Below are positions 4,381 to 16,701 of a stretch of 21,124 nt of DNA, in pieces. The DNA lies in the IMG/VR virus record IMGVR_UViG_3300008267_000843, positions 1 to 21,124 of that record; one strand, written 5' to 3'. Position 1 is the stretch's first letter. Each line of letters opens with the position of its first letter. The translations under genes were made by a program, and so were the position numbers. The notes below the pieces were generated by a model. The model was not told where the DNA came from. It ran no database searches and worked only from the letters and a program-made list of their open reading frames with translations. Origin of the DNA: a virus.

Positions 4381-7300
4381 TTAAATAGTTATAGAACTAT
4401 TAACCGAAAAGATTTTTTGTGTTCTTATTAGGTTTCCTTGTGCATCTTTAGTCTCGTCTAAACTACCGTTTGGTAATACCGGATTTGCATAGACATCATA
4501 TTCCAATGGAACTATTCCACTGACTCCAGCATCTGTATTGCAACTCTGTAAAGCATCTTGTAATGGTGTAAAAATAGCTTGTTGTTTATCGTCAGTTATT
4601 CGACCAGGTTCTGAAAGGTCTCCACTAGAACTACATGGTGTGTTACTGAATATTTGTCCTTTTGTTAGGAATATTTCCCATAAACCGACATTTGGTTTAA
4701 TTGAAACAATAATTTGATTGTCATTTCCTTGGACAGTAACTCTTCGAACATTAAAAATATCTTGTCCTGGTGGTAAAACAATTGGTCTCGGTGATGGTGT
4801 TGGTGTGGGGAATATTTCTTGGTAATTTGGACCATCAACTAACTTTTCAACGTTTTGAATAGTAATTCCATCGGTTTTAGCAACATTTAAAGCTTGAATT
4901 AGTTTATCTCTAATTGGTTTGTAAATTGTTAGTCTGTTTGTTTCAAAAGTAGTTTTATTGACTGTTGTATAATCCCATTCTGTGACATAGAACTGATGTA
5001 AACCTATTAAATCAGATATTTGTATTGTTTTAGCCTCTAATCTATCCCTTAAGAATCCTACAAATAAATCAACTGTTTTGAAGTTAGCTGCGGGAATTGT
5101 TATCTTACCGTTGAGACTTTGAGTTTCAACACACGAATATTGTTTCATGAAAGCTCCTCGTTCAAAGGTTGGACTGTAATCTTTTTCTAAAGAGATTAAC
5201 GCGTAATTATTATTGAATGAATTAAATCCTTCTTCGGGTTTTTCACATGTTCTTAGGAAGCACAAAGCGTAAATAATTGCTTGTAGGTTTGAGTCCGCAG
5301 GTATTGCACTTTTTATCTTTGCAACTAAATCACTTCTATTAATTACTGTTTGTGTATAGGCGGTTGATACGAATCCGTTTCTATTTGTCGGGGCGCCAGT
5401 ATTACTAGCCCCTTGAACACTTGATGAGGTCTTTGTTAAGTTGGATGATGCGGAAGATGTTCCTTTTTCGTCGGTTTTATTTACGAGAGCCTTTTCGAGT
5501 TTTGTTAGTAAATTTTGATTTATACTTTGAAGGAAACTATCTATTGCAGGTAAGTCGAACACACCTTGTCTAACACCTTTAAATGTTGTTTGGAATTGAC
5601 CAGGGGTTATGACATGTTCAACATCAGTAATAAAATATGGACCATTAAACATTGGAACGTGTCTAAGGTTAAAATACATGGTTGGTTGAATCATTGCATT
5701 ACCTAAACATACAACTTGACATCCGTAACTTCTTTGACTGTAATAATTATATAACCCCACATTCTGTGTTGACGACTGCCTTCCTCCCGCTTGTTCTATC
5801 ATGTTCACTAAATTCTGAACACTTTCACTCGTCCCTTTACCATTATCTTGAGACACTGAAAAATTAGAAAAAACATTTTGATTTCTTATACCTATATCTA
5901 CGGTAAATCCAACACATCTATTTGACTGAGCCCAATCTTTCCTTTTTTGTTTTTCATTTAAATCTTCAATCAATGGATTACTTTTATCTAATTGTATTCC
6001 ATCACTTCTAAATAAATAATTTTTACTTTCCGGTAATTCTACATAATTTGCTGGTCGACCAACGAAGAAACAAACCATTTTTGGACCGGCCTCCCTATAA
6101 TCCACATTTAAAAAAGTCCCCCACATATTATCCGCAAACTCTAATGAATTACCAGTCGGGGTTGAAACTCCGTCTACATTTTGTATATTATAAAAATTAA
6201 CATATGCAGGTAAGTTCATTATTACAAAATTATTCTCATAAAGAATATTTGCAATAAATGTATAAACACTCATCTTCATACTCATTTCTTTATTTAGATA
6301 TTTTTTCAAACTGAAAATATCTAAATATAAAGTATCCCCTATGTTTCGCGACGCTTTATCTAAGAAAAGAATGTCCTCAAAAAAGGTTTTGTTTTTATAA
6401 TCACCACCCGCAATCCACTTGTCATTCAACGCTTTAAATACGTTTTCATATAAGTCTACTTTAGTTTGTTGTCCACTTATTTTTGAATCTATTGTTTTTT
6501 CAGGGACTTCATTGTAATTTGGTAAATCTTTTTGAATTTTCGCCAAAATCCCATCCAAAGTATCCGTTTGTATTTTATTACAATCAGTTAAATAGTTATT
6601 CAATAAAGTATTGAATTGAGTGCTATTAAATGTTGGTTTATTAAGTTTTTGGGTTGCGTATATTTTTATCAATTGGTATAGGTCTTTTATATTTTCTACC
6701 GAAAACTCAATATTGTTGTCAATGAAGAAGTCAGTAATATATGAACCATTATTAGAATATTTTAAACCGTCGATTGTTGAAAATCCGACATACTCTTCTA
6801 ACGCCACCCATTCATTAAAATAACTATTTTTTGATTGTATTAAAGTTGTTGTCCCACCTTTTGACGGTAAACTTCCTGCTAAGTAAGGTTTGAAAAACTT
6901 TGGATTTACTAAACTACCTGATTGTATTGCTTGGGCGGCTTGTTGAACCGCTAGAAATCCATTAAATACAGGTCTATTTAGAAAAGAATCAAAAATATAT
7001 CTATCATAATTTGATGGATTACCATATTTTAAAATCACATCATACTCCAAAAATTTCAAAATTATCGAACTGAAGTTTCCAAGTTGGTCATCTATTGAAT
7101 CCAAGAAATAGGTTTCATTAGTAACCCCATCGATTGGTTTGTCAATAACCATTAGGGTTCTCATGAGTGATTGAAAATTTCTATAGGTTAGATTTGGATT
7201 ACTTGTTTGTTGACCAATTGATGGGTTTTGTGTTGGTTCATATTGTAATTTATCAACAGATTTAGAAAAGTTTTTAAACTCAAATTCGAATGAGTCTAAA

Positions 7301-10300
7301 ATTTCTTTGTTAAAAACTGAAAATATTTCTTCAATTTTTGTGTAATCGTTTTTATTTGATAATTTATATGGTGATATTGACTGACTATTTCCAACAATGT
7401 TATTTAAATAAGATTCAGCATCAGGTTTTATTATTTGACTCTCATCAAAATACCCATAGTTTGGTGCCGCCCATAATAATCTCATTGAGCCATTGTAGAC
7501 TGATGTATTCCCTGTTATTGAATATCCGCCTAAAACACTTTGGGTTGAGAGTAGTGGTGGTGTTTGTGTTGTTGTAATTAATGAATCAACAACTTGATTT
7601 TGTGAACCACCGAATGAGGGTATAAAATAATACCCACTAGCACCAGGTAGTAAAACACTCCAAGTGATATACCTTAAAGGTATATCGTTCTGAGTAACAT
7701 TCAGATTAGATTCTGTAAAGTTGTAAAGTTTAAGTCCTTCGTTTATTGATTGTTGTATTTCCGAATCTGAATAATTCGAATATATATCTCCACCCTTGTA
7801 AAAGTAATTAAAATCGTTAATTAGTTTTGGGTAAAAACCTGATTGAACTACCACATTTTCACTACTAATATATTCTAGTTGAATTGTGTTTCCGGTGTTT
7901 CCATTAAAATCAAGTGTATAAATTTTATCGGTTTTCTTTGTGATTGGGTCAAATAAATCTTTATAATCTGCCGACCTCCAAATTTTGGATAAAATATCAA
8001 CACCCGTTTCTTTCTCTAATTTATATCTATACCATAAGGACCCAATTTTCAAAATCCAAGAGTATGGTAACTTATGTATTGCACCGAATTTTTTCAAAGA
8101 TGCAAACATATAATCCAACTGATTTGAATTTATACTATTTGATTTATATTTTTCTCTTAACGAGATTAACGGTAAAGAATTGATAAATAAGTAAGCCGCC
8201 TCGACATAAGGAAGCTCATTATTATTTTTACTTTTTGCAACACCTTCTACGATTGAATTGATGAAGAAAGGCGTGTTTAGTATTGAAGTTGTGGTTTGTA
8301 TTGGTAAATCACCGGCTAAGATATTAGGTATTGGTTTATTTTTATTTTTAGGAACATCAAATAAACAATATCCTTCTGTTGGAATAAAGTTTAAGGGTTG
8401 TCTATTACTATAAAAAGTAGGGAGAAATGATGTCTGATTAGTCGATGAAAAGAAATCATTGTTTGATAGTGGGTTCTGAACATTTAAGAAAGAAAAATTT
8501 GTTACCGGTCTGTTTTGAGTAAAGTTATTTATATCGGTAAAATTAGATATAACATTTCTTTGTTTATAAACATTCAATACTTTTGTTGTATTGAACACAT
8601 TATTCAAATCTTGAATCGATTGTCCGTCTGCTAAGTTTGTTTGTCCCCACTCAGCATTTGTGAAGGGATATATATCCAAAAGAGTTGGTTCGTTAGTTTG
8701 GGTTGATTTAACAATAATTTCTAGTCTATTATCGTCCAAACTAGTTGCGGGTTGTTTCCCTAAGTCATCCAAACTTAATATACCAAAAGTTTTACTTGTA
8801 TAACTTTTTATGTATGGTGTTACAAATATATCTCTTATAAAATCAATATATGATTGACTTGTCCCATTATTAGAAATTTGACTAAGAAGAGTAGTATAAT
8901 TCGCAGCAGTAAACTTATAATTCTTTAATTTTGAATTTAAGTAAGGGTTTGAAGTCCCAAGTCCATCAAGAATATTTTTAGATTCTACCTCAACTAATAG
9001 TTTTATTATCTCGTCGTATTCAGAATCATTTTTACTGAAACGAGATAAATTTGAATATCTTGAAGTCATAAATTGTCTTTCCCATATTTCATAGAAAAAC
9101 TTAACTTCTTCTTTATTACTATACACTATTTCCGTTTGTGGAAACTCTATAGCGTTTATGTTAAGAATATTTGTAAACTGCTTTATGTTTTCTGGTGTTG
9201 GGGCGTTTGGTGGTGTAAACCTCTGAGTAATACCCTTTATATATTCTTCAACAAATTCAACTTCAGGCCACTTATCATACAAATAACCTTTAGTTTGAGA
9301 TATTATAGATGGGTCACCAATGTATTTTAGTTGATACTTTCCTTTTTTGTCTTCGTCAGTCTCCACAAAAAATTGTGGCCACGGATAAACAGGTATTTGT
9401 GAATTTGGGTCGATTCCGGAAACCAAATCCTTAGTGTCTGAGCCTTGAACTGATGATGTATTGTTAAGTATTGCACTTTTTCTTATTGGGTCATATCTTA
9501 CTCCCCAAGCCTTAGTATGGACATCGTCCATCAACCTTATAAATCCCTCCGCAGATGCCATTATAATTGAAACTATATTTCTTACTGTTGGACTAAAACC
9601 AATTCCTGTTTTTGAATCTTCAATTTTTTCTTTTAATTCTTTTGTTATTTTATTTTCAATGTCGGCAAGTTTTTTTGTTGCCTCAGCATTCATGTTATTA
9701 ACAACATCTATAAATCTGTTCTGACCGTCAAAAATGAAAAAATGAGGCTTTAAAAACTCAAGAACTTTAGCACTTTCACCTCGAGCAATAAATGGTGTTT
9801 CACCACCGATTGAACTTAATAAATTTTTAAAACTTGAGAGTGTTGTAGGTTTAAATAATTTGTTATATGATTGTATGACTTCTTGAACTTGAATTACCGT
9901 TGGACTTATAATACCGGTCTGCTCCCTTGTGGTCTCAACCCAATCTATTTTATCCGCAGTTGTAGTTGCGGTAATCATATTTATAGATATGGGATTTTTT
10001 ATTTCTTGAGGTGCTTTAAGTCCAAGAGTTGGGTTACTGTTTAGTGTTGTATTGTATTTGATTATTATCGAATCTAATTTTGAGTCAAGTTCTGGTTTAA
10101 GAGTATCGTCAATACTCTCTTTATATGCGTAATATCTTATACCTGTTCCTTTTTCAATGAATGGTTTAGGGTTTAAGTTTTTTGTAAACCAAGAGCCTGA
10201 TTCACTATAAACTTCACCATACATCTTTTTAAGAACTCGGATATATTCTCTCATATTGGTTAAAGGTTCAACATCAGATTTTTTGTAATTGTCAATTATA

Positions 10301-11331
10301 TTTTTCTCAAAGTTCTCTAATTTGTTAATTAACTGTTGTAATGTTAATTCCGGAAAATCTTGTGGTATTAATTTTTTTGATTTATACTCACCGTAAACTT
10401 CTATTATTTTTTGATATCCTTTTTCAACAAACATTTGTTGTGTAACAGTGTTCTTACTATTGTTAGCGACAGGTATATTTGATGACTGTTGTGTTGCAGA
10501 ACCTTGTAATGCGTTTGATACTTGACTACCTGTGTTAGAGTTAGAAATATCAAATCTTGATGAATACATGTGTGGGGCCGCAATTAAATGACCCATTTGT
10601 ATTTCATTCAAAATATTAAATTTGTATCCTTTGAATTCCAAATTTACTTGGTAGTTTCCACTTGTAGAATTGAATGAGACATTGAATTTTTCCAAATTTA
10701 ATTGATACCTTATAGCTTGTCCGTAATATCCTTTCATCGTAAGATAAAATGGAGGATACGGTAAATGAAGAAACGCAGCATACGGTGAATTTTCTCCTAA
10801 CTGAAATAAGGCTCTTCCTTGAACGTCTTCTAACTGTATTGAAACACTTGGTATAAACGCACTGGATGTTTTTACCGCAATACTAGTTATACCTAACAAA
10901 CCAGTATCTATTGTTCCTTCTTTTCCGTCTGTTAGTGCGGTTAATTTTGTATATGCTTTGTCACCGTTTGATGGTGGTATTAACTCTGTTTGTGTTTGAT
11001 TTGTTCCTTTACCTTGTCTTGTTCCTTTACCCGTGAGTTCATCGTAATAGTTCGTAGACAGGTAATCATCTTTAGTTGGTGCTAAAAAGTTAATTTTTGC
11101 AATTGATATTGTTCGAATATTATCTGTCGTGCTACCTAATGCTAATTTTGTTCTTGGTAATAATTCGGCCTCCAAGTTGGCATACATCACCAAATCTTCA
11201 TGGTCTACCAACCTTTCGGATATATTACCTTGACTATCGACCGTTTTGTTTGGGTCGACTATAATAATATTGTTGTAATCAAACTCAACATATATATTTC
11301 CACTTTTGTCTCCTTGAATTTTACCTGCCAT
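4381..11331 (-). CDS. Giant baseplate hub-like protein (2316 aa)
   Basis: A 2316-residue structural protein. Residues about 155-260 contain a beta-rich segment (F-Q-L-G-E-N-S-P-Y-A-A-F with later L-P-Y-P-P-F-Y-L-T-M-K-G-Y-Y-G) like the tube-like domain of phage hub and tail proteins. A second beta-rich segment at about 1745-1935 carries M-V-C-F-F-V-G-R-P and later F-N-L-R-H-V-P-M-F-N-G-P-Y-F-I-T-D-V, typical of the closing part of gp27-type hub domains. The roughly 1500 residues between are Asn/Ser/Tyr-rich with no motif I recognise. A helical region follows (about 1995-2130) and then a Pro-rich linker and a final beta domain. T4 gp27 is only 391 residues. The start overlaps the end of the LysM gene by 11 bases. 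The hub role is inferred from these segments and gene order. Confidence 0.7.
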   Translation of the reverse strand: MAGKIQGDKSGNIYVEFDYNNIIIVDPNKTVDSQGNISERLVDHEDLVMYANLEAELLPRTKLALGSTTDNIRTISIAKINFLAPTKDDYLSTNYYDELTGKGTRQGKGTNQTQTELIPPSNGDKAYTKLTALTDGKEGTIDTGLLGITSIAVKTSSAFIPSVSIQLEDVQGRALFQLGENSPYAAFLHLPYPPFYLTMKGYYGQAIRYQLNLEKFNVSFNSTSGNYQVNLEFKGYKFNILNEIQMGHLIAAPHMYSSRFDISNSNTGSQVSNALQGSATQQSSNIPVANNSKNTVTQQMFVEKGYQKIIEVYGEYKSKKLIPQDFPELTLQQLINKLENFEKNIIDNYKKSDVEPLTNMREYIRVLKKMYGEVYSESGSWFTKNLNPKPFIEKGTGIRYYAYKESIDDTLKPELDSKLDSIIIKYNTTLNSNPTLGLKAPQEIKNPISINMITATTTADKIDWVETTREQTGIISPTVIQVQEVIQSYNKLFKPTTLSSFKNLLSSIGGETPFIARGESAKVLEFLKPHFFIFDGQNRFIDVVNNMNAEATKKLADIENKITKELKEKIEDSKTGIGFSPTVRNIVSIIMASAEGFIRLMDDVHTKAWGVRYDPIRKSAILNNTSSVQGSDTKDLVSGIDPNSQIPVYPWPQFFVETDEDKKGKYQLKYIGDPSIISQTKGYLYDKWPEVEFVEEYIKGITQRFTPPNAPTPENIKQFTNILNINAIEFPQTEIVYSNKEEVKFFYEIWERQFMTSRYSNLSRFSKNDSEYDEIIKLLVEVESKNILDGLGTSNPYLNSKLKNYKFTAANYTTLLSQISNNGTSQSYIDFIRDIFVTPYIKSYTSKTFGILSLDDLGKQPATSLDDNRLEIIVKSTQTNEPTLLDIYPFTNAEWGQTNLADGQSIQDLNNVFNTTKVLNVYKQRNVISNFTDINNFTQNRPVTNFSFLNVQNPLSNNDFFSSTNQTSFLPTFYSNRQPLNFIPTEGYCLFDVPKNKNKPIPNILAGDLPIQTTTSILNTPFFINSIVEGVAKSKNNNELPYVEAAYLFINSLPLISLREKYKSNSINSNQLDYMFASLKKFGAIHKLPYSWILKIGSLWYRYKLEKETGVDILSKIWRSADYKDLFDPITKKTDKIYTLDFNGNTGNTIQLEYISSENVVVQSGFYPKLINDFNYFYKGGDIYSNYSDSEIQQSINEGLKLYNFTESNLNVTQNDIPLRYITWSVLLPGASGYYFIPSFGGSQNQVVDSLITTTQTPPLLSTQSVLGGYSITGNTSVYNGSMRLLWAAPNYGYFDESQIIKPDAESYLNNIVGNSQSISPYKLSNKNDYTKIEEIFSVFNKEILDSFEFEFKNFSKSVDKLQYEPTQNPSIGQQTSNPNLTYRNFQSLMRTLMVIDKPIDGVTNETYFLDSIDDQLGNFSSIILKFLEYDVILKYGNPSNYDRYIFDSFLNRPVFNGFLAVQQAAQAIQSGSLVNPKFFKPYLAGSLPSKGGTTTLIQSKNSYFNEWVALEEYVGFSTIDGLKYSNNGSYITDFFIDNNIEFSVENIKDLYQLIKIYATQKLNKPTFNSTQFNTLLNNYLTDCNKIQTDTLDGILAKIQKDLPNYNEVPEKTIDSKISGQQTKVDLYENVFKALNDKWIAGGDYKNKTFFEDILFLDKASRNIGDTLYLDIFSLKKYLNKEMSMKMSVYTFIANILYENNFVIMNLPAYVNFYNIQNVDGVSTPTGNSLEFADNMWGTFLNVDYREAGPKMVCFFVGRPANYVELPESKNYLFRSDGIQLDKSNPLIEDLNEKQKRKDWAQSNRCVGFTVDIGIRNQNVFSNFSVSQDNGKGTSESVQNLVNMIEQAGGRQSSTQNVGLYNYYSQRSYGCQVVCLGNAMIQPTMYFNLRHVPMFNGPYFITDVEHVITPGQFQTTFKGVRQGVFDLPAIDSFLQSINQNLLTKLEKALVNKTDEKGTSSASSNLTKTSSSVQGASNTGAPTNRNGFVSTAYTQTVINRSDLVAKIKSAIPADSNLQAIIYALCFLRTCEKPEEGFNSFNNNYALISLEKDYSPTFERGAFMKQYSCVETQSLNGKITIPAANFKTVDLFVGFLRDRLEAKTIQISDLIGLHQFYVTEWDYTTVNKTTFETNRLTIYKPIRDKLIQALNVAKTDGITIQNVEKLVDGPNYQEIFPTPTPSPRPIVLPPGQDIFNVRRVTVQGNDNQIIVSIKPNVGLWEIFLTKGQIFSNTPCSSSGDLSEPGRITDDKQQAIFTPLQDALQSCNTDAGVSGIVPLEYDVYANPVLPNGSLDETKDAQGNLIRTQKIFSVNSSITI

Positions 11332-11644
11332 AATAATAAAAATGGTTACTTAATGCACCTTTATAGTCTTGTAAAGAAGGTAGTAAAGGAAAAGGAATTA
11401 TCAATATAGCTCCGTCAGGAATATAATTTTCAAGACCCCCATATTGTGGGTTTGCCTGTAATATCAACCATCCGAAGAATGGTGTTCCATAATATTCTTG
11501 AGATATTTTATCCAACCTACTCCGACCAACTTTATAAATGTAAGTCTTATCTGTAGTCTTTTGTGGTATTTGCACAAAAGGAACAACGGTTTGTTGACCG
11601 TTGATTAAGAACTCACTATACCTATTATAATATTGAAGTGCCAT
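11321..11644 (-). CDS. LysM-containing baseplate wedge / tail protein (gp53 or gpX-like)
   Basis: A 107-residue protein. Residues about 34-86 form a LysM-like unit: Y-I-Y-K-V-G-R-S-R-L-D-K-I-S, then Y-Y-G-T-P-F-F-G-W-L-I-L, then I-P-D-G-A-I-L-I-I-P. Small LysM proteins in this position include T4 gp53 (196 aa, wedge) and P2 gpX (tail protein X), where the domain holds baseplate parts together. Its ATG overlaps the upstream stop codon by one base (TAATG) and its own 3' end overlaps the giant hub gene, so three large tail proteins are translationally coupled. Whether it is closer to gp53 or gpX cannot be settled by eye. Confidence 0.75.
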   Translation of the reverse strand: MALQYYNRYSEFLINGQQTVVPFVQIPQKTTDKTYIYKVGRSRLDKISQEYYGTPFFGWLILQANPQYGGLENYIPDGAILIIPFPLLPSLQDYKGALSNHFYYYGR

Positions 11645-14600
11645 TAATTTAATTTTACTTTACCTATATAAACCGCATTTATTAAATCGTTCCATGTTAG
11701 TTTATTGTTATTTGTATTGTTTGAAGCCCCAAGTGATTTAATTAAACTGTTTCTATTGTTTGTATACGCCTCCTCTCCACCTTCGATAGTTGTTGTGAAA
11801 ACAAATTCTCTTTTCTTAGTTTTTGAGAATGGAGTATAAACCAAATAATCCTTAAGTGTTTTTGTAGTTAACTCATTGAAGAATTGTTCAGTAATTTTAT
11901 TTTCATCCACAAAAACAGGTTTTACTTCATTTTTCCAATAAGCATCAAACTCCCTTTCAAGTTCTGTATTTCCATTCCCAAATAAACTAGAGTTAGAAAG
12001 TATGCTTCCAATTATTTGATTTTTAAATGCCGTGTATTTTGCATCATCCACTATGTCATCATTTAGTATAAAATAACTTCTTCTGAATGAAGGATTATTC
12101 ATTTTTACATTATCAGTAAAAGGAACGAATACATCGTTTTTCGGGATTTCAGTATTGTTGTAAATTAATTTTCCATTTTTCGCTTTCCCTTCAAATGTGA
12201 AATCGACTTTATTTTTTGTTAGAGTATCAAATTTATTTAAATCTTCCCTGATTCTGATTATATCATTTTCTAATTCCACAAATGTATTAGATGGTGTTGG
12301 TATTGAAGATGGGTCTACTTTAGTTGTTCCTGATATCAAATATAGTTTAACGAACCCATTACTTTGTTGAAATCCGTCTGTTCCACTTCTATTTGCCAAT
12401 GGTTGATATGCCACAGTATTGGCCTTACTTATCTGTTGTAAATAATTTTGTTGAACAATTGTGAAATCTTGAATTATCTTGGTCAAAGCACTTTGAAAGT
12501 TATTTTTCTTCGTGGTTGATATATACTTTTTGTAATTTTCTTTCAAAGCGGTGATAACTTTGTCTGAGAAGTTTTTAGCGTTACCCGGTGTTCCTTTAAT
12601 GAAAGATATCAATCCATCACTATCATTATTTATATCAGTTATGAAATCATTAAATACCTCATTTATTTTGACTTCCACATTTTTTGGTTTTCCAAAAAGA
12701 TAGGTATCTACGTTACCAACTGTATACAAAATTTTACCGGTTTGATAATCTCTATTAAATGTCCACATTTGTCTAACCGCATTATTAAATTGTCTAAATA
12801 CTTCTCTATTCTTATTAACCACATTTGTAAAATAATTTTGAGTTTCACCCAAAAATCCATTCATATATCCCTGATAATTAATATCACCAACTTCTCCTGA
12901 TTGTAAAGTAGTTGCAGATGTGATAACACCTATAGTTTGACCATTTGTTTGTCCAGGGTTGTTTTGAACTTGATTAACTGTTGGTGGTGGAACACTAATA
13001 TTAAAATAATTCAAGAAATCCTTATCTAACACTTGATAACTTGTATCGGTAACGTCAGCCCTATCATCATACATTTCTGTGTTAGCATAATAGTTGAACG
13101 TTAAGGCGTTTTGTATTCTATCTACAGCACCGGCTAAACCATGTCCACCAACAAACTTGAAGCTCATGGTTATATTTGCTATCATTGGTTGTATACCGAT
13201 TCCTTCGGGATTCATATCTAATCCTTCATATGTGATATTCAAATTATCGGGTATTATCTTAGTGTGATAAAAGTCACCTACTCTCAATATCAAAACGGGT
13301 GGTGCCCCGAACGCAGTATTTGTTGCGTTATTATATTGTAATTCCCCACCTTTCTGAACTACAGGTATTGTATCTCCCGGTCTTAAACATTGTTGTAAAA
13401 AGGTTAATCTAGAATTTAATCCCTCAGGTGTGGTTGAATGGAATGCTGGATGGAAAAATTTTAATTTTTCTTTGAGGTTATCATAAACCATCGGAGTCTC
13501 TTCTTTGATTGTTTCAAAATAATCACATTCCGATAATAATGACCTCAGAACTCTTTTTGTTATATTATCTCTAATTACTGTCCTCGTAACTTCCTCAGGT
13601 ACTTGAGTTGTCTCTGTAAATCTTTGAGGGGTTTCAAATTCTTGTGTTTGTCTATTTCCCGGTGTTCCAGGTACAATAGTTTCTTTGTCAGGAAGATATT
13701 CGTTGACTGTTAATTTAACTCCAACCCTTCTACACGCCATCGCATTTACGGTGTAAATTTTTTCAGCGGAGCTTCCCGCAGTATCTTTATCACCGTTCTC
13801 ACAGTTATATGAACCGAAGTTTTGTTTTCCTGTTGGTGATACGCTTGTTTGTTCCCCTCTTGGGTCAGGGAAAACCATTAATCTTTTCGGCGAACTATTC
13901 ATAAACATACCTAGAGTTTTATCACCGACCTTGAAGTTTGTTAACCAATTAGTCACAGCCTCTACTCTCCTTTTCGACAACTCTACATTATACGCTTTAG
14001 TTTGTGGTGAAGACGCACTTCCTATTAATAATAATGTTGCGGTTGCTTTCTTGTTTGTGATAAAAAGATTAAGTAATTCACCCGCCATTTCTTTCAACTT
14101 TGTAAAATTATCCTCCACGATATCCACAAAGAAATTCGCAGTTTGGCTCGCACTACTACTATATGGTGTAGTGGTAGTTGGACTATTATTCGAATATTTC
14201 GTTTTGAGTCCTAAGTATTCATTATAATATGTTTCAAATGAGCCGACTGTTTGTTTCCTCAACGGAATGTCGTTATGAAAATAAAATCCCAAATTTTTGT
14301 ATTTATTCACATCTATTGTCGGTGGTGTAGGGCTTGTCTTGATAGTGTCCGGTGTCCCATCTTCCCCTGTTGTGATTGAATCTTTTATATACCTAATTCT
14401 TTCTGTGCTAACATCCCTATATTGTAATTCTTTTTGAATTTCAAAAATATCATTTGGATTTACCGTATAATATTTTTTTGCTAATTCATACAAATCGTAT
14501 TTTCTACATCCGGCGAAGAAAGATTCTAAAATAGAATCAACTCTTGTCTTATTAGTTTCATTAGCTAAAACTTTATCCACTATCACATTCAAAACTGATG

Positions 14601-16701
14601 GGTGGTCTACAACTATTTTCCAAGATAATGTTCCACTCCTACTTGTGTTATTATAAGTGTATACTGGTTCAGGTCTTCCTAAAAAGTCGGTTCCTTTCCA
14701 ATTAGCACTTGATGACTCAGTAAACTTTAAATCGTATGGTGGAAACCACATTACTCGTCCACCATTAGGTCCTCTCTCACATACCGGTAAATCTGAAACA
14801 GTATAACCCGGTTTGTTTGATGTTCTCCAAGCTAAATTTTCTAACGAGAACATATATTTTTTTGCTCTACCTTCTTCTCCTGTTCCACCAACTAAATTTG
14901 TTGAATCTTGTCCACCCTCTCTTTTGTTTGGATACATATTTAAATTATATGTCTTATCCAATACCGAGTAACTAAATCTTCTACCCTCCGTAGTCATACC
15001 ATCAGTCTTCTGTAAATCATTATATTGTAAATAAGGTGTGTCTTTCGCAAATACTCTACAATATTCCGCACCTCTCTCTTGACCTATCTCACCAATGTAT
15101 GCCAAAACTCTTGAGCCCTTTGTCATCTCTTTATATCCATCGTTGAAGACCTTACTAACTTGGTCAATCGCGTTTCCGACGTGTTCTAATCTTTTTCCAC
15201 CTTGTGGTTGACTATTAATTAATCTTTGTGTCTCATCTAAAATAGAACCATCCCTAAAATCTAAATTGGTTGATTCGGTGCTTAAGAAAGATGATTCTTT
15301 AAAATCATTATCATCTCTCACTATCTCTCCACCCTGTCCTACCTTCTTACCTGCGTTTTGTTTATACTTAGGGGAAACCCATGTCATACCCCCTTCTATA
15401 CCCCCTCCATTACTATAGATTGGACCGTTAGCACCCAACTTAATTTGTTTACTAGTCTCTCCTTCATAAAGTTGTGCCAATTTACTTGGTCCGTATACAG
15501 GTGCTTGAACTTCTTTTCCAAATTCATTTCCGGGTAAATCACCACTTGGTGAAAAAATTCTAGAGGGTTCTGATGTTGTCGAACCTATATAGTAATTACT
15601 ATTATTGACACTTGTTCCAAAAATCGCACCACCAAGTCTATCTAAAAGTGTTCTGTCATATCCCGGTTTATATATATTATAATCAATGTTAAGAAACAGT
15701 CTAGATTTCTGACCTCTACCAGTATTATTTAAAAATAATTGTGAACCTGTTTTTGAACTACCAAGTAATGCTGATATAACCTGACCAACACCTGTTTGTC
15801 CAACAGTATTATTAAACGCATTTGTTATTTGTTGAATTGTGGTGGGTTGTCCCGGATTTATACTTGAGTCAAAATAAGAACCAGGTATCGGTGATACGGG
15901 TAAAAACCCTCCTGCTAATCTTAACGCAAATTCTGCAGCGTATGAAATAGGATTTGCGGGAACGGTAATTTGATAATTAGGTTGTAAAAGTGGGATGGTT
16001 CCTGTTATTATACCAACTAAATTAGAAGTGCTATTTGTATTAAGAAAATTAGCCCTACCTAATGTTTGTCTTCTCAGTTCGGCGGCAATTCTATCTTGAA
16101 ACTCTCTTCTCAAAACTTTAGCACCGAGTTTTGCAATAAAAGAATCTTGACTCAAATTACCATTAGTTCCTCTTGGATTGTCTGATAATAATATATTTGA
16201 TGCTCTATAAAATGAAGGGACAAATGTTGTAGGATATGGTTGTGAGTTTCCTGTTCTTCCGTTATTAATTTGTAATACCTCAAAACTTGAAAAATTAATT
16301 GATGAATCAATAACATTACTTGTTCCGTCCCCATAAGCATTTAATACTTTCCATCCTCCCGGTTTGTTCGCTTGGTTAAAAGCTTGTAAAATTATTTCCG
16401 CATCATTTACACCATATTCTCCCTCATTAGAGTTTGTATTATTTAAAACATTTACATCTCTCGTTTGTCTATATCCACCATCACTACCATATTGATTTAA
16501 TGGGTATAACTCGTTCGCTAAAGTTGGTTGGTCTATCAGTTGGTCGGGACTATCTATAACTTCATAGTCTGACTGAATTATCGGAAAATTAAATGGTGGG
16601 TCAGGTCTGTTTGGTGATTTAGGGTATGGGGCTAGATTTCTAGCAACTAATCTTGTTCTAAAAGTTTGTGTTGATGGGAAATCTAAAGGACTATTAGCCA
16701 T
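11644..16701 (-). CDS. Baseplate / tail-tube-initiation-like protein with embedded OmpA-like domain (1685 aa)
   Basis: A 1685-residue virion protein. Residues about 645-710 (M-W-F-P-P-Y-D-L, E-S-S-S-A-N-W, Y-T-Y-N-N-T-S-R-S-G-T-L-S-W) resemble the tube-like fold of T4 gp48/gp54-type proteins. A complementary half at about 1135-1210 has L-R-V-G-D-F-Y-H and later N-I-T-M-S-F-K-F-V-G-G-H-G. Between them lies an OmpA C-terminal-like domain (about 860-1000) with Y-N-V-E-L-S-K-R-R-V-E-A-V and a closing A-C-R-R-V-G-V-K-L. The N-terminal 640 residues are Gly/Asn-rich and unassigned. The C-terminal 450 residues are mixed alpha/beta and unassigned. It follows the tape measure gene, as baseplate and tube-initiation genes do in T4-like phages. 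The fold calls rest on motif resemblance only. Confidence 0.75.
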   Translation of the reverse strand: MANSPLDFPSTQTFRTRLVARNLAPYPKSPNRPDPPFNFPIIQSDYEVIDSPDQLIDQPTLANELYPLNQYGSDGGYRQTRDVNVLNNTNSNEGEYGVNDAEIILQAFNQANKPGGWKVLNAYGDGTSNVIDSSINFSSFEVLQINNGRTGNSQPYPTTFVPSFYRASNILLSDNPRGTNGNLSQDSFIAKLGAKVLRREFQDRIAAELRRQTLGRANFLNTNSTSNLVGIITGTIPLLQPNYQITVPANPISYAAEFALRLAGGFLPVSPIPGSYFDSSINPGQPTTIQQITNAFNNTVGQTGVGQVISALLGSSKTGSQLFLNNTGRGQKSRLFLNIDYNIYKPGYDRTLLDRLGGAIFGTSVNNSNYYIGSTTSEPSRIFSPSGDLPGNEFGKEVQAPVYGPSKLAQLYEGETSKQIKLGANGPIYSNGGGIEGGMTWVSPKYKQNAGKKVGQGGEIVRDDNDFKESSFLSTESTNLDFRDGSILDETQRLINSQPQGGKRLEHVGNAIDQVSKVFNDGYKEMTKGSRVLAYIGEIGQERGAEYCRVFAKDTPYLQYNDLQKTDGMTTEGRRFSYSVLDKTYNLNMYPNKREGGQDSTNLVGGTGEEGRAKKYMFSLENLAWRTSNKPGYTVSDLPVCERGPNGGRVMWFPPYDLKFTESSSANWKGTDFLGRPEPVYTYNNTSRSGTLSWKIVVDHPSVLNVIVDKVLANETNKTRVDSILESFFAGCRKYDLYELAKKYYTVNPNDIFEIQKELQYRDVSTERIRYIKDSITTGEDGTPDTIKTSPTPPTIDVNKYKNLGFYFHNDIPLRKQTVGSFETYYNEYLGLKTKYSNNSPTTTTPYSSSASQTANFFVDIVEDNFTKLKEMAGELLNLFITNKKATATLLLIGSASSPQTKAYNVELSKRRVEAVTNWLTNFKVGDKTLGMFMNSSPKRLMVFPDPRGEQTSVSPTGKQNFGSYNCENGDKDTAGSSAEKIYTVNAMACRRVGVKLTVNEYLPDKETIVPGTPGNRQTQEFETPQRFTETTQVPEEVTRTVIRDNITKRVLRSLLSECDYFETIKEETPMVYDNLKEKLKFFHPAFHSTTPEGLNSRLTFLQQCLRPGDTIPVVQKGGELQYNNATNTAFGAPPVLILRVGDFYHTKIIPDNLNITYEGLDMNPEGIGIQPMIANITMSFKFVGGHGLAGAVDRIQNALTFNYYANTEMYDDRADVTDTSYQVLDKDFLNYFNISVPPPTVNQVQNNPGQTNGQTIGVITSATTLQSGEVGDINYQGYMNGFLGETQNYFTNVVNKNREVFRQFNNAVRQMWTFNRDYQTGKILYTVGNVDTYLFGKPKNVEVKINEVFNDFITDINNDSDGLISFIKGTPGNAKNFSDKVITALKENYKKYISTTKKNNFQSALTKIIQDFTIVQQNYLQQISKANTVAYQPLANRSGTDGFQQSNGFVKLYLISGTTKVDPSSIPTPSNTFVELENDIIRIREDLNKFDTLTKNKVDFTFEGKAKNGKLIYNNTEIPKNDVFVPFTDNVKMNNPSFRRSYFILNDDIVDDAKYTAFKNQIIGSILSNSSLFGNGNTELEREFDAYWKNEVKPVFVDENKITEQFFNELTTKTLKDYLVYTPFSKTKKREFVFTTTIEGGEEAYTNNRNSLIKSLGASNNTNNNKLTWNDLINAVYIGKVKLN

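Follow-up and report, generated by a model that had tools for sequence, protein, structure and literature searches.

A conserved OmpA-like domain inserted in the tube initiator protein of a contractile phage tail

The window analysed in this study is a whole virus record of 21,124 bases. A set of tail genes lies in it, and their coordinates and those of the features discussed below are collected in Table 1. The genes are arranged in the order of tail tube, T4_baseplate protein, a protein in the tape measure place, tube initiator, gp53-like protein and a giant protein in the hub place. The same order of tail genes occurs in Flavobacterium phage immuto; the tape measure and the hub were placed by position only. 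The tail tube protein has 43.6% identity to that of Microcystis phage Mel-JY01, and immuto is the next closest. The gp53-like protein matched the baseplate wedge subunit family phrog_7145 (E 1.3e-4) and also Phage_tail_X with an E-value of 0.094, which is below the cut-off. Pfam and PHROGs gave no family match of weight for the protein in the tape measure place, and the hub-place protein had no Pfam match and a weak PHROG match. Outside the tail genes, a UvsX-like protein has its nearest relative in immuto, an ssDNA-binding protein is weakly similar to those of Lysinibacillus phages and cyanophages, and another protein resembles only uncultured phages of 634–735 kb. Large aquatic phages with hosts mostly in Bacteroidota are described in passages of PMC12619734. 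At positions 199–861 there is a 220-aa protein with a zinc-ribbon-like start, and its C-terminal HIDHIIPLS looks like an HNH endonuclease motif by eye; the Pfam search with this protein gave nothing at E ≤ 0.01.

Table 1. Tail genes of the window and features of the tube initiator protein.
Feature	Position	Strand	Basis
Tail tube protein, gp19-like	19446..19934	-	PF06841 E 0.0032, below cut-off
T4-type baseplate / assembly protein	18627..19367	-	PF12322 T4_baseplate 28.3 bits, cut-off 24.5
Protein in tape measure place, 567 aa	16741..18444	-	Position only
Tube initiator / baseplate centrepiece protein with OmpA-like insert, 1685 aa	11644..16701	-	ORF, relatives, structural match, gene order
Tube-like domain, first half, residues 610-712	14566..14874	-	Structural match; profile finds 10/10 outgroup proteins
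Whole insertion, residues about 713-1092 (helices, OmpA-like domain, linker, helices)	13426..14565	-	Absent in 10/10 outgroups
OmpA-like domain, residues 797-1002	13696..14313	-	PF00691 profiles, AlphaFold model, PDB superposition
First-strand motif FYFxNDxP, residues 806-813	14263..14286	-	Tyr807 and Pro813 in 103/103, Asn810 in 101/103 distinct domains
Ligand-pocket motif Ser897 (replacing Asp), Tyr904, Asn905, Leu908, Arg912	13966..14013	-	Alignment; roles of equivalents from passages of PMC7192894
Cys967, first loop Cys	13801..13803	-	102/103 distinct domains
Cys990, second Cys, before last strand	13732..13734	-	102/103 distinct domains
Tube-like domain, second half, residues about 1093-1187	13141..13425	-	Structural match; co-linear profile alignment
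gp53/LysM-like small baseplate wedge protein, 107 aa	11321..11644	-	Next gene downstream of tube initiator
Protein in hub place, 2316 aa	4381..11331	-	Position only

Searches with the tube initiator as a single sequence were empty. The whole protein found no match with phmmer against the PDB or with tblastn against 50,697 phage records, and the PHROGs search gave weak unnamed matches only. Profiles built from its family were needed. At least 600 candidate stretches with relatives were found in IMG/VR, and at least 599 of them were confirmed. A structural model of residues 480–1240 had a mean pLDDT of 57.6 and a pTM of 0.36, in which the OmpA-like part was of good confidence and the two tube halves were of moderate confidence (pLDDT about 60–75). 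Single VIA alignments covered model residues 131–708, corresponding to residues 610–1187 of the protein, and skipped the OmpA-like part. The best tube match was chain 6j0n_b (Z 11.0, rmsd 4.2, 146 aligned), which comes from an extracellular contractile injection system. Other matches were diffocin 8v3w_T (Z 10.9), AFP 6rao_G (Z 10.8), AlgoCIS, the Anabaena CIS and the baseplates of phages A-1(L), P1, E217 and Mu, with Z about 10–11 for AlgoCIS and the phage baseplate chains. We regard the matched chains as tube initiators or equivalent proteins; the A-1(L) entry carries that name, and most others are just called baseplate.

The profile of the first tube half found one protein per locus in all ten outgroup loci (E 2.2e-5 to 0.0041; 736 ORFs). 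This outgroup was composed of immuto, Mel-JY01, LR756508 and seven of twelve IMG/VR loci, five near-duplicates being left out. The second tube half alone found no homologue in the ten loci by profile search. When both halves were joined, the profile alignment was co-linear over 164 columns, with VGDFY aligned to IGNLY and QPMIANITMSF to LPKNIQVSCEF. The P-value was 8e-9 compared with 2e-8 for the first half alone, which is a small gain. The distance from a conserved Trp to a KLNYL-type motif is exactly 47 residues in all ten outgroup proteins, without any insert. In contrast, the distance from GRPEP to NSRLTFL in the family, measured between nearly the same points, is 406–488 residues (69 of 160 members, those matching both patterns). 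The OmpA profile had no match in the ten outgroup proteins, and neither did a PF00691 search of the full immuto, Mel-JY01 and LR756508 records. Since the outgroup proteins are uninterrupted and lack an OmpA match, the domain was gained in one lineage. The protein serves a contractile tail as its tube initiator, or baseplate centrepiece, and the OmpA-like domain entered the helical region of the tube domain in an ancestor of the phage family. Identity and insertion taken jointly are close to certain.

The preliminary description had placed the domain between two halves of a gp48/gp54-type tube fold. The two halves stand, and the label is better replaced by the type of Mu gp43, Pvc7, Afp7 and Milano gp25. 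Like Mu gp43, Milano gp25, Alg7 (and Pvc7/Afp7) and A-1(L) gp18, the window protein has the tube-like domain, the position in the gene order and the gp53/LysM-like neighbour. Helical, alpha/beta and/or LysM parts are added to the tube domain in Mu gp43, Milano gp25, Alg7 and A-1(L) gp18, as far as the available passages describe them, and an OmpA-like insert is mentioned in none of these passages. On the other hand, the insert of the window protein is located within the tube domain and its gp53-like protein is a separate gene. The centrepieces of immuto (gp35), Mel-JY01 (WWT39329.1) and LR756508 have a first tube half homologous to that of the window protein (E 2.6e-5 to 0.0041), and those of immuto and Mel-JY01 have the same neighbours. 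Unlike the window protein, all three are without the insertion.

PF00691 was the sole Pfam match of the whole protein at E ≤ 1 (E 5.8e-5, 23.8 bits; cut-off 27.2). The excised region alone scored 26.8 bits, just below the cut-off, and a search of the window record in six frames gave 28.7 bits, above it. Among 46 representative family members, 34 matched PF00691 at E ≤ 0.1. The family profile found 31 distinct PDB sequences at E ≤ 1, of which the top 27 are OmpA/Pal/YfiB-type by name and the best is PorE (6top, 1.4e-4). Profile comparison gave P-values of 8.9e-8 against E. coli OmpA and 2.5e-6 against Pal. An AlphaFold model of the domain with 46 family sequences had a pLDDT of 93.1 and a pTM of 0.91, and its order of strand-helix-strand-helix-strand-strand is that of OmpA. 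It was superposed by VIA-align onto Pal 4g4w with Z 10.7 and an rmsd of 2.6 Å over 108 of 108 target residues, and all of the 50 VIA matches listed are OmpA, Pal, MotB, TagL, YfiB or related envelope proteins. Foldseek was weaker, with eight matches at E ≤ 0.001 and query-length TM-scores of 0.28–0.36 among the matches listed; the long loops of the domain probably account for these modest scores.

An OmpA-like domain had been proposed earlier for positions 13690–14125, that is, residues 860–1004. The domain itself is borne out by the profile matches and the modelled fold. Its start had been set too late, because the domain begins at about residue 797, some 60 residues earlier, and the first strand (residues about 805–808) lies about 55 residues before the proposed start. 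The strings quoted at that time are all present, namely GSAS at 894–897, YNVELSKRRVEAV at 904–916 and ACRRVGVKL at 989–997. The second cysteine, expected about 25 residues upstream, is Cys967, which lies 23 residues before Cys990. The corresponding spacing in E. coli OmpA is 12 residues, and the disulfide is putative. In common with Pal, OmpA, PorE and TagL (PF00691), the window domain has the fold order, the YNxxLSxRR signature and the Tyr, Asn, Leu and Arg of the pocket. Its C-terminal half also resembles E. coli OmpA in the GE motif, the two cysteines and RRV in the last strand. Unlike all four, it has a long loop with two conserved tyrosines after the first strand. Members of the OmpA family are found at the end of an envelope protein, whereas the window domain lies inside a phage tail protein. 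A YNxxLSxRR string arising by chance within an unrelated fold is extremely improbable. The whole-protein Pfam score slightly under the cut-off and the modest Foldseek TM-scores would fit such a false positive, but the profile, profile-profile and structural evidence is independent and concordant. The AlphaFold model and the VIA superposition practically refute it.

The OmpA-like domain was present in all of the 160 ORFs that strongly match the first tube region, at loci from three scans. The domain scan was run with filters off; the speed filters had missed three contigs (L167, L169 and L172). The 160 ORFs gave 104 distinct domain sequences, one short sequence was dropped and 103 were aligned. 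Mean pairwise identity was 0.36 in the domain compared with 0.73 and 0.71 in the flanking tube regions. Seven cysteines (residues 548, 641, 732, 967, 990, 1059 and 1105) were invariant in 57 of 57 near-full-length homologues. Five of them lie outside the OmpA-like domain and possibly form disulfides or a metal site. A disulfide network is reported for the tail of phage Milano in passages of PMC10811340. Among bacterial genome contigs, 594 pattern matches for a relative of the tube region were obtained and none was confirmed. In BFVD, a single clear match was obtained, A0A6J5L6C4_2, which is an uncharacterised protein from an uncultured Caudovirales phage; some annotated OmpA proteins matched as well.

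In the ungapped motif alignment, Ser897 sits at the Asp of GYTD in OmpA and of GHAD in Pal. According to passages of the PorE study (PMC7192894), the side chains of Asp576, Asn584 and Arg591 contact the peptidoglycan fragment, and the hydrophobic contacts include Tyr583 and Ile587. The Asp side chain binds the amine of diaminopimelate, and the main-chain contacts of this Asp need no side chain (PMC7192894, same passages). The pocket of TagL is likewise given as Asp, Asn, Leu and Arg in passages of PMC8253398. In contrast to the peptidoglycan-binding Pal, PorE and TagL, the window domain has Ser for the diaminopimelate-binding Asp. The preliminary description had noticed this loss together with the retention of the Arg, and both hold across the family. 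The amine-binding Asp is absent in all of the 103 distinct domains (Ser in 102, Pro in one), and Arg912 is kept in 102. Tyr904 is found in 102 and Asn905 in 103; Leu908 is found in 93, with Ile in nine. Conservation reaches 97% or more at 18 of 200 positions, and these include four of the five pocket positions, namely Ser897, Tyr904, Asn905 and Arg912 (hypergeometric 2e-4). The pocket residues also belong to the OmpA signature, so this conservation may serve folding. One distinct sequence, identical in three contigs (L167, positions 6986–11818, L169 and L172), has lost YNxxLSxRR (GTKPPQTVSSPNDWFE) and retains the remaining domain and both cysteines.

These data bear on the view that the captured domain merely occupies the space between tube and wedges and keeps its signature for the fold. 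Such a filler role is improbable. The fast divergence of the domain relative to the tube regions and the lineage that tolerates the loss of the motif are in its favour, but it does not explain why at least 97% of the 103 distinct sequences keep each of four pocket residues. The suggestion of a purely structural relic is weakened, since the pocket is among the most conserved positions and Ser is common in OmpA-like proteins of Bacteroidota. For the latter, a GYASPEG-YN coding pattern was searched in 84,980 bacterial and archaeal genomes and gave 118 stretches. The full OmpA-like motif with the Ser variant was present in 78 of the 80 stretches examined, mostly Bacteroidota by record title. The pattern itself fixes Ser, so this count shows that the variant is common and says nothing on its frequency relative to Asp. 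Asp stood at this position in 19 and Ser in two of the top PF00691 matches from eight Bacteroidota genomes, a set that also contained E. coli OmpA and Pal. Because Ser is common in cellular proteins of Bacteroidota, the change from Asp to Ser alone is no proof of lost binding.

In tube structures, the helical region that corresponds to the insertion site is on the outside of the ring, and the insertion probably faces outward here as well. Six copies of the OmpA-like domain would then lie around the ring connecting tube and hub, in the space between the tube and the wedges. There the domain may act as an adaptor on the outside of the tube-initiator ring, and its pocket (Arg912, Asn905, Tyr904 and Ser897) would hold an acidic side chain or terminus belonging to another tail, hub or wedge protein. 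This adaptor mechanism is the reading that we consider most likely, with a probability of roughly 0.45. Pal's OmpA-like domain can hold TolB. The adaptor is suggested by known homologues, in which the extra parts of tube initiators bind wedges and hub and a further wall-binding fold, the LysM module, is regarded as structural (passages of PMC11915804, PMC10811340, PMC10966104 and PMC8894135). Against it, the unusual conservation of the pocket could equally mean peptidoglycan binding, and the Ser need not abolish binding to the wall. In addition, the tube halves were modelled at moderate confidence, and the second half alone has no profile homologue.

A close and somewhat less probable rival is a grip on peptidoglycan. 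After contraction, the ring of domains would bind stem peptides through the Asp-to-Ser pocket and so hold or position the tube tip at the cell wall. In this reading, the initiator ring would travel out of the baseplate and into the periplasm along with the tube. The pyocin centrepiece homologue is extruded with the moving tube on contraction, as stated in passages of PMC10811340. The equivalents of PorE Tyr583, Asn584 and Arg591, as assigned from the available passages, are kept in 102, 103 and 102 of the 103 domains, and the main-chain contacts of the Asp are independent of its side chain. A Ser variant is also present in Cellulophaga phage phi14:2, a member of Crassvirales, beside those common in cell proteins of Bacteroidota. 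Its g002 protein (L193, positions 283–1278) matches PF00691 with the Ser of the window domain, GYASPPGTNDYN. Unlike the window protein, g002 is a stand-alone protein of 331 aa whose annotation is that of a membrane protein and not of a tail protein. However, every distinct domain aligned lacks the side chain for the free diaminopimelate amine, and one member is without the whole motif. The adaptor is preferred over the grip because none of the aligned domains has this Asp and the pocket is gone from one lineage.

With envelope-anchoring domains of this kind, bacteria fasten their secretion systems and flagellar motors to the wall. A widespread lineage of large phages might have built such a domain into the ring at its tube tip, where six copies would on contraction moor the tube to peptidoglycan with a pocket retuned from Asp to Ser for the wall chemistry of the host. 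This wider proposal is less likely than not. The question raised is whether the domain anchors the tail tip to the cell wall or has come to hold the tail itself together. Little is known about what a contractile tail tube does when it reaches the peptidoglycan, and a conserved OmpA-like domain on the initiator ring would offer a direct handle, with a small confident fold, one pocket and one residue change. After LysM, it would be the second wall-binding fold seen where tube and wedges meet in the baseplate. No description of an OmpA-like domain in a tube initiator was found in the titles, abstracts and some passages of the open-licence literature. The insertion is genuine and conserved, and the protein that carries it is of a type already known. 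The family is abundant in IMG/VR, and its sole close match among predicted viral structures is named "uncharacterized".

The origin of the domain was examined with profiles of Ser- and Asp-type Bacteroidota domains in which the Ser/Asp column was masked, the Ser profile being built from 19 of 80 sequences to equal the 19 of the Asp type. Neither descent was preferred (mean 20.1 bits for Ser and 19.2 for Asp), and the Ser profile scored higher in 25 of the 46 family members. In phage records, E. coli Pal and the OmpA C-domain found 19 and 30 matches, respectively, many of them like host DNA by annotation. Loa22 was not found in prophages, according to passages of PMC8705779. Three of the phage OmpA proteins were examined, and none of them is a centrepiece. 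A 608-aa membrane-type protein with a C-terminal Asp-type OmpA domain was observed in LR756500 (L195, positions 4444–6268), an uncultured phage of 462 kb.
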